Assembly (NCBI RefSeq): GCF_001927245.1
Contig: NZ_MJUX01000004.1
Span: 62,001-126,000, forward strand
Length of the DNA: 64,000 nt
Origin: Acuticoccus yangtzensis
GTDB lineage: Bacteria; Pseudomonadota; Alphaproteobacteria; Rhizobiales; Amorphaceae
Reading direction: 5' to 3'
A model generated the notes under the pieces. The model worked only from the letters and a program-made list of their open reading frames with translations, did no database searches and was not told the DNA's origin. Of this stretch, positions 26,162-62,053 are shown in pieces. Position 1 is the first letter of the stretch, and each line of letters starts with the position of its first letter. The position numbers and the translations under genes are program-made.

Positions 26162-26962
26162 ATGCTCACCGTCGCGACCTGGAACATCAACGGCGTGAAG
26201 GCACGCATCGACGTGCTCACACGCTGGCTGGAGGAATCGGCGCCCGACGTCGTCTGCCTGCAGGAGATCAAGAGCCAGGACGAGACCTTCCCCGCCGAGG
26301 CGGTGGAGCGGCTCGGCTACAACGTCGCGACACACGGCCAGAAGGGCTTCAACGGCGTGGCGCTGCTTTCCAAGCGCCCGCTGGAGGACGTCGCGGTGCG
26401 TCTGCCGGGCGACGAGGCGGACGAGCACGCCCGCTGGATCGAGGCGACGATCTCCACCGACACCGGCGCGGTCCGGGTGGTGAGCCTTTATCTGCCGAAC
26501 GGCAACCCGGTGGAGCGCAGCCCCGAGCCGTCCGGCAAGTTCGGCTACAAGCTCGGCTGGATGGACCGGATGCTGACCCGCGCCGAAGCGCTGCTCGCCA
26601 CCGACGAGCCGATCGTCCTGGCGGGCGACTACAACGTGATCCCCCTCCCCGCCGACGCGCGCCATCCGGACCGCTGGACCGAGGACGCGCTGTTCCAGCC
26701 GGAGAGCCGCGCCCGCCACCGCGCGCTGGTGAACCTCGGCTATGCGGACGCCCAGCGCGCGGTGGACCGCAGCGACGGGATCTACACCTTCTGGGACTAT
26801 CAGGCCGGCGCTTGGCAGAAGAACAACGGCATCCGCATCGACCACGTGATGCTGTCCCCCGTCGCGGCCGACCGGCTGTCCGGCGTGGTGGTGGAGAAGC
26901 ATGTGCGCGGGTGGGCCAAACCGTCCGACCACGTGCCGGTGGTGTTGACGCTGGACGTTTGA
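26162..26962 (+). CDS. xth: Exodeoxyribonuclease III
   Basis: AP endonuclease / 3'-5' exonuclease of the EEP family in base excision repair. The 266-residue protein begins MLTVATWNINGVKAR, has the metal-binding Glu in CLQEIKSQD near residue 35, SLYLPNGNPV near 107, and the catalytic Asp/Asn in LAGDYNVIPL near 155. The C-terminal Asp-His pair is in KPSDHVPVV. All catalytic residues are intact. It follows the Fe-S carrier gene by 8 bases. Confidence 0.96.
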   Translation: MLTVATWNINGVKARIDVLTRWLEESAPDVVCLQEIKSQDETFPAEAVERLGYNVATHGQKGFNGVALLSKRPLEDVAVRLPGDEADEHARWIEATISTDTGAVRVVSLYLPNGNPVERSPEPSGKFGYKLGWMDRMLTRAEALLATDEPIVLAGDYNVIPLPADARHPDRWTEDALFQPESRARHRALVNLGYADAQRAVDRSDGIYTFWDYQAGAWQKNNGIRIDHVMLSPVAADRLSGVVVEKHVRGWAKPSDHVPVVLTLDV

Positions 26963-27038: not shown

Positions 27039-27065
27039 AAAAACGGGACCGCCGAAGCGGTCCCG
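27039..27065 (-). terminator. Rho-independent terminator 3 of 3 (distal)
   Basis: On the minus strand, a perfect 9-bp stem (CGGGACCGC paired with GCGGTCCCG) closes a TTCG tetraloop and is followed by TTTTT. It is the last of three near-identical units spaced 32-33 bases apart. A C(UUCG)G loop is unusually stable. Confidence 0.88.
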
Positions 27066-27071
27066 CAATGG

Positions 27072-27096
27072 AAAAAGGGTCCGCCGAAGCGGTCCC
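27072..27096 (-). terminator. Rho-independent terminator 2 of 3
   Basis: Minus-strand hairpin of 8 bp with one internal mismatch, TTCG loop, then TTTTT. It shares the flanking CCATT with its neighbours, so the three units look like tandem duplications. Confidence 0.82.
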
Positions 27097-27103
27097 GTAA
27101 TGG

Positions 27104-27128
27104 AAAAAGGGGCCGCCGAAGCGACCCC
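27104..27128 (-). terminator. Rho-independent terminator 1 of 3 (proximal)
   Basis: Minus-strand hairpin with an 8-bp stem (one G-T wobble), TTCG loop and TTTTT tail. It begins about 45 bases after the stop of the small reading frame at 27173 and is the first terminator met by transcription from that gene. Confidence 0.85.
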
Positions 27129-27172
27129 CCGTGAGCTTCAGCGGGCGATACGCCCGGCTAAGCCCGACCGAA

Positions 27173-27253
27173 TCACCGAGACGAAGAAGGCTGCTCCGTC
27201 GTCTCCCGATTCGACCCAAGCGTCGCCGCCCGCTTCAGAATCCCACTCGACAT
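27173..27253 (-). CDS. Tiny open reading frame with an extreme ribosome binding site
   Basis: Predicted 26-residue basic peptide starting MSSGILKRAATLG and ending in a Ser-rich PSSSR; no function recognised. The case for translation is the leader. AAAGGAGGTGATCC, complementary to the whole 16S rRNA 3' tail, ends one base before the ATG, with 7 bases between the AGGAGG core and the start. Three tandem terminators follow. A second frame over the same DNA stays open from 27257 to 27138. It would give an acidic, hydrophobic peptide with AGGDAWVESGDDGAAFFV, but has no start codon and would need a -1 shift. The unit could also be a regulatory RNA or leader. No downstream gene follows past the terminators. 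Confidence 0.5.
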   Translation of the reverse strand: MSSGILKRAATLGSNRETTEQPSSSR

Positions 27254-27254
27254 T

Positions 27255-27268
27255 GGATCACCTCCTTT
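27255..27268 (-). promoter_or_regulatory. Full-length Shine-Dalgarno sequence
   Basis: The 14 bases AAAGGAGGTGATCC on the minus strand are the exact complement of the conserved 16S rRNA 3' end. Typical sites in this window match only 4-8 bases. This supports very strong ribosome recruitment to the ATG at 27253, or ribosome sequestration. Confidence 0.85.
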
Positions 27269-27328
27269 CGCTGTGTTGAACACGACCCGATGTTGTCACG
27301 ATTCGCGCGTCTCGCAACCCCCATCGGC

Positions 27329-28027
27329 TCAACTCTCCAGCCCCAATAAAGGAGGAAGCGCGAAGAGGCCGCGGAACGTGGCGAGGGCGCCACGATCGCC
27401 GCTGACCTGCGCCGCCCCGTCCGCCTCCAATCCCTCGAGCGGCACCCCGCCATAGACCCAGCCCGCCAGCACCGGCGCCGCGCCGACCGAGAGCGTCGCC
27501 GCCACGGGACCCTCGCCACCGCGCACGATGGTGAGCGCCCGGTCCGCCACCCTGAGGCGGAAATCCTCGGCCCCCACGGTGATGCCGATCGAAAGGTCGA
27601 GCCACGCCGCACGTTCCGGCACCAGCATCGTCTCGAACGACAGCATGATCGACGCCGCACTGAGAGGCAGCGTCTTGTCGTGCAGCGGCGAGCGTGCGGC
27701 CCAGCGCCCCAACACCATGAAGATGGGCCGCGCCTCGAGCCCCCATGCGGTGAGCCGGTAGGCCCGGCCCGCCGGCGGCGGCAAGGTCACCCGCTCGACG
27801 ATGCCGAGCTTCTCCAGCTTGGTCAGCCGCTGGGTCAACACGTTGGCGCTGAGGCCGGGAAGGTTCGTCCGCAGATCGCTGAAACGTTTCGGCCCGAACA
27901 TCAGTTCACGCATCACGAGCAGCGCCCAGCGCTCCCCCACGAGGTCGAGCGCATGGGCGGCGCCGCAGGCATCGCCATAGCTCCAGCCGATCGCTTCCGC
28001 ATCGTAGGTTACTTTTTCTGACTTCAT
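27329..28027 (-). CDS. HxlR-type winged-helix regulator with SCP2-like C-terminal region
   Basis: DNA-binding regulator of 232 residues. The N-terminal HxlR domain (about residues 15-110) contains ALDLVGERWALLVMRELMFG and FSDLRTNLPGLSANVLTQRL. The C-terminal 110 residues (from LDLSIGITVGAEDFRLRV) resemble an SCP2-type sterol-binding fold, a combination known in this family and suggestive of a hydrophobic ligand. The start ATG at 28027 follows the family N-terminus. It is divergent from a VOC-family gene, which it probably controls. An inverted repeat covers its start codon. Confidence 0.85.
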   Translation of the reverse strand: MKSEKVTYDAEAIGWSYGDACGAAHALDLVGERWALLVMRELMFGPKRFSDLRTNLPGLSANVLTQRLTKLEKLGIVERVTLPPPAGRAYRLTAWGLEARPIFMVLGRWAARSPLHDKTLPLSAASIMLSFETMLVPERAAWLDLSIGITVGAEDFRLRVADRALTIVRGGEGPVAATLSVGAAPVLAGWVYGGVPLEGLEADGAAQVSGDRGALATFRGLFALPPLLGLES

Positions 28028-54018: not shown

Positions 54019-55716
<1,698 letters not shown>

Positions 55717-61072: not shown

Positions 61073-62053
61073 TCAGAGCACGGATTTGGCGAGCATCATG
61101 TGGCAACCCTTCTCGCCGTCGACGGTCTGGGTCACGCGCAGATCGCCCTGCAGCGAGCACAGCATGTAGGCCTCCTCACGGGTGAGGCTGGTGCGGCGGC
61201 CGATGTGCTCGATCATCTGGCGCAGGGCGATCCGGGCCGCCTCGTCCAGGTCCTCGTGCATCCCCATGCTGATGAGATGCGTGGCGTTCTCGGCGAACGG
61301 ATAGGCGTAGTCGAGGTCCTTGCGCACGGTGAGGCGGAAGGTGCCCGTGAGGCCGGTCTCCAGCGCGGTGATGCACACCTCGCCGTCCCCCTGAACACCG
61401 TGCCCGTCACCGGCGGAGAAGAGCGCCCCTTCGGCGAAGACCGGCAGGTAGAGCGTCGACCCCGCGACCAGCTCCTTGTTGTCCATGTTGCCGCCGAACT
61501 TGCGCGGCTGCATCGACGGGATGCGCCCCCAATGGGGCGGAGGCGCCACCGCCATCACCCCGAAGAAGGGCGACAGGGCGATCTCGGTGCCCCAGGGCAG
61601 GCGCGCCGTGCGGGCGGCGGTGTCGATCGCCGGGTGGATCCGCGTGAGGCTGTCGAACTCGTTCGGCAGCGTGCCCTTCAAGGGGACGATCTGCACGAAG
61701 CCCCAGGGCTCGTTCAGCGCGACGTCGAGGATGTCGACCTGCAGCACGTCGCCCGGTTCGGCGGTCTCCACGTAGACGGGGCCGGTGAGCATGTGGGTGG
61801 TGCCGTCACGCACGCACGTTTCGACGGCGCTGCGGTGACCGGGCGAGACCAGGCTTGCGTCGGGCGGCATGCACTCCGCCCCGCCAGCGGCCCAGGCCGT
61901 CAGGTGAACCGTGTCGCCCGACGCCACGGTCAGCACCGGCGGCAGCGCCGCATCGTGGTGGCCCCAATGAATGTTCTGCGGCAAGGCGGGCAGTTCGTGG
62001 TGGGTGGCGGAGGGTGTGGTCGGCGCGGCGGGCGGGGTGGTCCGGGTGGACAT
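61073..62053 (-). CDS. Acetamidase/formamidase family protein
   Basis: 326-residue enzyme of the FmdA/AmdA family, which hydrolyses short amides to acid and ammonia. NIHWGHHDAALPPVLTVASGD lies near residue 28, GPVYVETAEPGDVLQVDIL near 92, GGNMDNKELVAGSTLYLPV near 190, and EGALFSAGDGHGVQGDGEV carries the metal and substrate-binding residues near 213. A strong AGGAG precedes the start. Urease is encoded 5 kb away, so two ammonia-releasing activities lie in the area. Their co-regulation is not shown. Confidence 0.93.
   Translation of the reverse strand: MSTRTTPPAAPTTPSATHHELPALPQNIHWGHHDAALPPVLTVASGDTVHLTAWAAGGAECMPPDASLVSPGHRSAVETCVRDGTTHMLTGPVYVETAEPGDVLQVDILDVALNEPWGFVQIVPLKGTLPNEFDSLTRIHPAIDTAARTARLPWGTEIALSPFFGVMAVAPPPHWGRIPSMQPRKFGGNMDNKELVAGSTLYLPVFAEGALFSAGDGHGVQGDGEVCITALETGLTGTFRLTVRKDLDYAYPFAENATHLISMGMHEDLDEAARIALRQMIEHIGRRTSLTREEAYMLCSLQGDLRVTQTVDGEKGCHMMLAKSVL

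Follow-up and report, generated by a model that had tools for sequence, protein, structure and literature searches.

A possible ribosome-engaging small RNA gene related to Caulobacter CC2171 in Acuticoccus yangtzensis

A locus on the minus strand of the window, by which is meant the whole 64,000-nt stretch analysed here (nt 62,001–126,000 of contig NZ_MJUX01000004.1 of Acuticoccus yangtzensis), can tentatively be read as a self-contained gene for a small RNA, kin to the sRNA CC2171 of Caulobacter, and its product would be a ribosome-engaging mini-mRNA or sRNA in which translation, and not the peptide, matters. Judged from sequence comparison, this joint reading has close to an even chance of being correct. 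The RNA looks built to engage ribosomes, since it carries a complement of the 16S rRNA tail and a short frame that appears to be kept in length, not in peptide. An initial annotation had proposed a short transcript acting via the ribosome, either as a small mRNA or as a regulatory RNA, or in both roles; the comparison fits this proposal, except for the notion of a conserved small protein, which was not supported.

On the minus strand, the sequence ran TTCAACACAGCG-AAAGGAGGTGATCC-A-ATG into a frame of 26 codons, and 43 bases separated this frame from three UUCG hairpins, each with a T-run. The CAAC leader motif (nt 27275–27278), putatively near the RNA 5′ end, was followed by the SD, AAAGGAGGTGATCC (nt 27255–27268), a complement of the 16S rRNA 3′ tail that is conserved within the class, and by the frame ATG...TGA (nt 27173–27253; ATG at 27253–27251, TGA at 27175–27173). 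A long imperfect rod (nt 27131–27246), with its 5′ arm starting at frame codon 3 and its base immediately before terminator 1, was predicted to end in the apical hairpin GGAG-CAGC-CUUC (nt 27186–27197), which coincides with the EQP codons. Terminator hairpins 1, 2 and 3 occupied nt 27108–27129, 27077–27096 and 27043–27066, respectively, the last two being tandem copies, and the length of the RNA to the first terminator would be about 180 nt. Outside the transcript, 3′ of the RNA, lies a convergent gene on the plus strand (nt 26162–26962) which, following the initial annotation, we take to encode an exodeoxyribonuclease III-like protein (xth); the gene 5′ of the RNA on the same strand (nt 27329–28027), presumably encoding an HxlR-type regulator, was present in the loci of two of seven genus relatives. 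Adjacency to xth, suggested as a landmark for relatives, held in all seven relatives from the genus, one of which matched through no more than 21 residues at the edge of its locus; elsewhere in the order, 11 loci were tested and none had xth alongside. Heuristic gene calling gave a downstream gene for 112 loci, sharing the strand of the RNA in 61 and lying on the other strand in 51 (in the Rhodobacterales type, same strand in 15/20); an attenuator or leader of the downstream gene was rejected on this mixed orientation and on the convergent gene in the window. An FMN riboswitch was observed in Pelagibacterium luteolum (L122:5129–5280), about 240 bases 3′ of the SD on the same strand.

AAAGGAGGTGATCC at nt 27268–27255 was the single exact match in the 5.04-Mb assembly, where the reversed control pattern gave none. 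Within the window, AAAGGAGGTGATC had one exact match and three with two mismatches, against a chance expectation of 0.72 at up to two mismatches. By sequence search, the 16S end GCGGCTGGATCACCTCCTTT was present in three of eight genus genomes, which makes the 16S complement real for the genus, and was absent from the window's own assembly, which seems to be without a 16S end. The claim of a 14-base match to the 16S tail ahead of a 26-codon minus-strand frame was thus borne out, AAAGGAGGTGATCC being unique in the assembly and the frame being located behind it. The predicted duplex with the 16S tail amounted to -26.0 kcal/mol for the AAAGGAGGTGATCC-type SD and -22.2 kcal/mol for the GGAAGG form. 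Of 136 loci, 112 had CAAC no more than 16 nt away on the 5′ side of the SD, against 2 with CAAC in a control window farther upstream, and the Rfam model of CC2171 (RF01867) starts at this motif; to judge by these sequences, transcription probably starts near CAAC, with the RNA 5′ end close by. In a Rhodospirillaceae bin (L113), 11 bases of the 16S tail, GGATCACCTCC, recurred exactly within the RNA, about 110 nt past the SD.

The UUCG hairpins start at nt 27129, 27096 and 27066, that is, in steps of 33 and 30 bases instead of the 32–33 first given; the hairpins themselves were confirmed, and a pattern scan of the window found no UUCG hairpins with T-runs beyond these three. Relatives in the genus carried one to about four like copies (the scan missed the imperfect first hairpin in L004), so that the triplet is a local duplication; its description as an essential part of the locus was not supported for the same reason. 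Hairpin 1 alone was conserved in place. The triplet is not family-defining and may insulate the convergent gene. The repeat units of this array match across the genus and are tandem and fast-evolving. In the wider comparison, terminators were located for 128 of 136 loci, some of them visibly misplaced (L053, L003, L061).

The distribution of the RNA gene was followed with an exact pattern, SD plus start plus TC, and with its reverse as control. At the level of the order, 138 of 297 genomes matched, and at that of the class, 49 of 385; a phylum-wide draw, whose rows were counted by hand, gave 34 of 67 alphaproteobacterial genomes versus 0 of 182 proteobacteria outside the class; the reversed pattern gave none in the order, class and phylum-wide searches. 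The pattern occurred once per carrier genome, the exception being G662 (L203), the sole genome of 297 with two matches, one having GGGAGG for AGGAGG. DNA similarity placed the block in each of the seven other genus species examined; another 11 genomes from the order brought the total to 19 of 41, with the window's own counted, and no match was obtained in the two other genomes of the window's family. A scan of named genomes yielded at least 117 loci; among the matches listed (80 titles), 77 name groups that we take to be alphaproteobacterial and three name merely Proteobacteria. By these sequence matches, the RNA gene is spread through the Alphaproteobacteria, with none in the controls outside the class. 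Conservation in close relatives, on which the initial annotation had staked its proposal, was found for the leader, frame length, hairpin 1 and RNA structure.

RF01867 scored 36.7 bits against the window (E 2.4e-6 in a 411-base search), and the window was not reported for this family at the Rfam gathering threshold of 75 bits; because its score is under the cut-off, it is a relative and not a filed member by Rfam's rule. The model nevertheless aligns end to end to the window, and the weak score is probably due largely to the shared 5′ block. This block, CAAC...GAAAGGAGGTGATCC-start-TC, is common to RF01867 and the window and comprises the full 16S-tail complement, the start codon and a Ser codon; also shared are the RNA size and a long-range helix that runs from codon 3 to just ahead of the terminator, in the same place and of other sequence. 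The two differ in the start codon (GUG in the model, ATG in the window), in the rod sequence and EQP apex of the window, and in that RF01867 has the Rfam type sRNA gene and the alignments shown for it mark no frame. With E up to 0.1, RF01867 matched 17 of the 19 related loci; with E up to 0.001, it matched 21 of 96 genomes from the class, five of them exceeding the cut-off; among 14 named control genomes, Caulobacter vibrioides was the only match, and four of 18 scan-chosen loci (L064, L103, L114 and L119) passed the cut-off. Two matches were obtained in two of the 21 carriers, G052 and G079. In G052, a CC2171-like form, with the SD followed by GATCGAATG, was observed together with a Sphingomonadales-like form (L028 and L042), and paralogues may therefore exist. 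MH_s33 of M. huakuii is listed as RF01867 in the excerpted text of PMC5596092, and CC2171 gains one covarying pair in Rfam 15 (PMC11701678, in excerpt). No description of the 16S complement and frame of CC2171-like RNAs was found in the portions of the open-licence literature covered by the search. Atu_C3, rsmX, SCARNA4 and ar7 were discarded as families for the window, since all were weak Rfam matches far under their own cut-offs. Elsewhere in the window, nt 55275–55562 on the plus strand matched RF02514 (5′ ureB small RNA) at 105.8 bits; we take this family to be an RNA antisense to a urease gene of Helicobacter, and the match probably reflects conserved coding sequence for urease and not an sRNA.

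For analysis of the frame, clade groups were set by hand from peptide patterns. The window group held eight loci of the genus plus 11 from elsewhere in the order, among which L019 is Caulobacter-like. The Rhizobium type stands for one family (f23), a label inferred partly from peptides; its 44 sequences were fetched by similarity to one locus or by pattern, the pattern fetch matching 15 of 121 genomes in this family. The frame was 18 codons long in 20/20 loci of the Rhodobacterales type and 30/34 of the Sphingomonadales type, 14 codons in 9/9 Bradyrhizobium loci, and 23 or 24 codons in 44/44 Rhizobium-type sequences; the window group kept 26 codons and the stop in 11/19 loci, and lengths were more variable in the VSHC (20–26) and MSS (18–44) groups. 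All three stop codons were used at a fixed place in the Rhodobacterales, Sphingomonadales and Rhizobium types and in Bradyrhizobium, with TGA, TAA and TAG numbering 5, 4 and 11 in the Rhodobacterales type and 25, 18 and 1 in the Rhizobium type, while the adjacent codons varied in both. TGG was absent among the 20 Rhodobacterales-type stops, though either purine is found at the second and at the third stop position (permutation p about 0.008, calculated by hand with kinship ignored); the same calculation, again ignoring kinship, gave 0.5 for the Sphingomonadales type, 0.2 for VSHC, 0.2 for Bradyrhizobium and 0.09 for the window group. Frames +1 and +2 were interrupted in 6 and 5 of the 11 window-group loci with 26 codons, in 7/20 and 11/20 of the Rhodobacterales type, in 7/26 and 3/26 of the Sphingomonadales type and in 0/6 and 0/6 of Bradyrhizobium; in the last two, an open frame is weak evidence because out-of-frame stops are rare there. 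With the alternative frames broken in about half of the window group, neither the second open frame said to encode an acidic peptide nor the suggested -1 shift could be sustained.

Codon tests did not detect amino-acid-level conservation of the frame in the window group. Mean entropies at codon positions 1, 2 and 3 were 0.79, 0.67 and 0.58 in the Rhodobacterales type (n=20), 0.86, 0.93 and 0.63 in the Sphingomonadales type (n=26), and 0.86, 0.90 and 0.65 in the window group (n=11). Third positions were the least variable in the three largest of 11 codon sets and the most variable in two small sets and in the Rhizobium-like 24-codon set. The synonymous share in frame, compared with the other two frames, was 0.35 vs 0.40 and 0.25 in the Rhodobacterales type, 0.24 vs 0.39 and 0.47 in the Sphingomonadales type, and 0.28 vs 0.39 and 0.34 in the window group; it was highest in frame in just one of the 11 sets, four 26-codon sequences with 0.49 vs 0.17 and 0.20. 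In a Rhizobium-like genus, it was 0.29 vs 0.23 and 0.21 for 23 codons (n=19) and 0.28 vs 0.21 and 0.36 for 24 codons (n=12). Most sets showed no amino-acid selection, and the Rhizobium type was mixed. Peptides differed between orders; the Rhizobium type had a recognisable clade-specific peptide, MSNEISDLVTGM..KARQPSL, and 15 of the 19 23-residue peptides of the Rhizobium-like genus had a pI of 4.40–4.68 (Biopython). A conserved peptide MSSG...EQP was dropped on the codon tests and because EQP is the apical RNA hairpin. On balance, the data speak for selection on translation and its end point, though the peptide need not be idle.

The rod was predicted from an alignment of eight species of the genus, and its counts cover 50 of 56 predicted pairs, six leader pairs being omitted. 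Across the eight species, 95.7% of the cells in rod plus terminator 1 were paired, and nine pairs had changed on both sides (six in the rod, three in terminator 1). None of 500 shuffles scored as high on any measure, and pairing fell to 44–54% on sliding by one base. G004 (L009) kept the apical EQP hairpin despite a frame shifted at that point. At the base of the rod, the helix between codons 2–9 and the pre-terminator bases was stronger in its own pairing than in every cross-clade pairing in six clades, the margin in Bradyrhizobium being merely 0.5 kcal/mol, and it clearly beat same-clade partners in the MSS, VSHC and window groups. In the predicted ensembles, it was populated at 0.35–0.43 in these three groups, 0.24 in the Sphingomonadales type, 0.05 in the Rhodobacterales type and 0.00 in Bradyrhizobium, an SD latch being dominant in the last two.

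This latch was assessed as far-pairing of the SD core against dinucleotide shuffles in 115 of the 128 terminator-bearing loci and in the 44 Rhizobium-type sequences. Pairing exceeded that of the shuffles in the Rhodobacterales type (0.96 vs 0.49), Bradyrhizobium (0.90 vs 0.51) and the Rhizobium type (0.81 vs 0.41), was near expectation in the Sphingomonadales type (0.52 vs 0.44), and fell below the shuffles in the window group (0.27 vs 0.50), VSHC (0.22 vs 0.45) and MSS (0.19 vs 0.52). The Rhizobium-type SD was GGAAGG, with an extra A, in 44/44 sequences, a count outside which other SD forms in the family fall because sampling followed one locus or pattern; CCTTCC began 4–6 nt past the stop in 42/44, the SD core was paired far downstream in 41/44 minimum-energy folds, and all six bases of the post-stop CCTTCC were paired with the SD in 39/44. 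The Rhodobacterales-type SD, GGAGG, was paired with a [CT]CTCC site in 19/19 folds, and this site lay just before the terminator in 18/20 loci; none of 18 window-group loci had such a site within 45 nt ahead of the terminator. The extra SD base matched in its partner is the strongest single sign of selected pairing, and may represent one event. In the window clade, the SD core was unpaired at 0.38 vs 0.32 in shuffles, and the SD is predicted to be free, with the latch absent. The internal latch averaged -15.1 kcal/mol; since the SD:16S duplexes are stronger, the 16S tail could win the SD, if able to reach it. Over 132 loci, an internal mimic of the 16S tail gave a duplex z of -0.9 vs -0.2 for a reversed control; in Bradyrhizobium z was -1.92, the reversed-SD control also scoring well at -1.42. 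A universal mimic was rejected, as the Sphingomonadales type showed none and SD pairing in the open clades falls below that of shuffles.

On the preferred reading of a ribosome-engaging RNA, 30S subunits would dock on the leader by way of an SD:16S helix of unusual length, the ribosomes so loaded would translate the mini-frame, and translating and stopping at a fixed place would control the fold or fate of the RNA, or tie up 30S subunits. In the Rhodobacterales type, Bradyrhizobium and the Rhizobium type, an internal anti-SD copy is predicted to latch the SD shut; that of the Rhizobium type stands where a terminating ribosome would cover it. The rod of the window clade would leave the SD free and set a stable helix from codon 3 on, and it is conceivable either that it traps the 30S subunit or that it is simply unwound. 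Several findings tell against the preferred reading: a strong rod could equally block translation, the base helix is scarcely populated in the Rhodobacterales type and Bradyrhizobium, the latch is weaker than chance in the window clade, MSS and VSHC and near chance in the Sphingomonadales type, the frame-0 synonymous share is highest in one case among the 11 sets and in the 23-codon set, third positions vary most in two small sets and in the 24-codon set, and 336 of 385 class genomes were without an exact pattern match. A more specific version, though doubtful, is an RNA switch operating throughout the class, with the 16S tail of free 30S subunits as its ligand: the anti-SD copy or rod would compete with the ribosome for a single hyper-conserved SD, the fixed length of the mini-frame would allow a terminating ribosome to hold the switch open, and the RNA would report or buffer ribosome availability.

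An ordinary small-protein gene, in which the strong SD would serve high synthesis of a functional peptide of 14–30 residues, is rather unlikely. It would explain why frame and stop are kept, why clade-specific peptides such as that of the Rhizobium type are recognisable and why the four-sequence 26-codon set has its synonymous excess in frame, and SEP1 of S. meliloti (23 residues, pI 4.18, with the top translation efficiency among new small ORFs in the excerpted text of PMC10117765) resembles the Rhizobium-type peptides in length and acidity, as a possible homologue only. Weighing against it are the remaining codon sets and the low third-position variability of the three largest, the divergence of peptides between orders, and the EQP codons, which sit in an RNA hairpin kept as RNA on a frame shift. 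That same third-position conservation, the strong covarying structure and the cataloguing of RF01867 as an sRNA would suit a non-coding sRNA acting in trans, whose start codon and frame are incidental to a 16S-like leader; such an RNA would not account for a stop position that stays fixed while the stop codons interchange, nor for the lack of TGG among the Rhodobacterales-type stops, and we consider it unlikely. Least probable of all, and in our view very unlikely, is a decoy whose exposed SD soaks up anti-SD sRNAs, the CCUCCUCCC-loop RNAs of rhizobia and Rhodobacter. RNAs of this kind have been described from Rhizobiales and Rhodobacter (PMC3927594, in excerpt), and the SD core of the window clade is somewhat freer than in shuffles, but pairing with CCUCCUCCC would not require UGAUCC, which is equally conserved. 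The window RNA is itself no member of that class, as it presents an SD and not an anti-SD, and no CCUCC-type motif stood in the stretch before the terminator in its group.

Several known systems resemble the RNA as the preferred reading describes it. The dual-function RNAs of the rnTrpL/peTrpL kind in S. meliloti (PMC10117765) share with it a short RNA, a mini-frame and structure, but the window RNA is not the leader of a downstream operon. In the uORF26-DUF1127 leader of the same species (excerpts of PMC12218461), the RBS and the first ten codons of the mini-frame form a predicted hairpin and translation alters what the RNA exposes; that leader controls a downstream gene, whereas the window RNA stops at a terminator of its own. 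In S. aureus, extended SD:anti-SD initiation (PMC13009471) likewise involves pairing of the spacer plus the SD core with the 16S tail; it is reported for about 30% of initiation sites there, while the complete complement in the present start context is found about once per carrier genome. Further related literature includes PMC4842269, PMC7143759, PMC5521070, PMC7717549 and PMC5082802, all in excerpt. SD use can be low in the class that carries the RNA gene, as exemplified by C. crescentus, in which 75.4% of coding sequences are without an SD and two Caulobacter ncRNAs were reported as translated, according to PMC4117421. If the preferred reading is true, CC2171, a catalogued Caulobacter sRNA, would join a widespread RNA gene of the class that acts at the ribosome, and its frame would be one conserved for length and stop, not for peptide, which would bear on how small-ORF catalogues are read.
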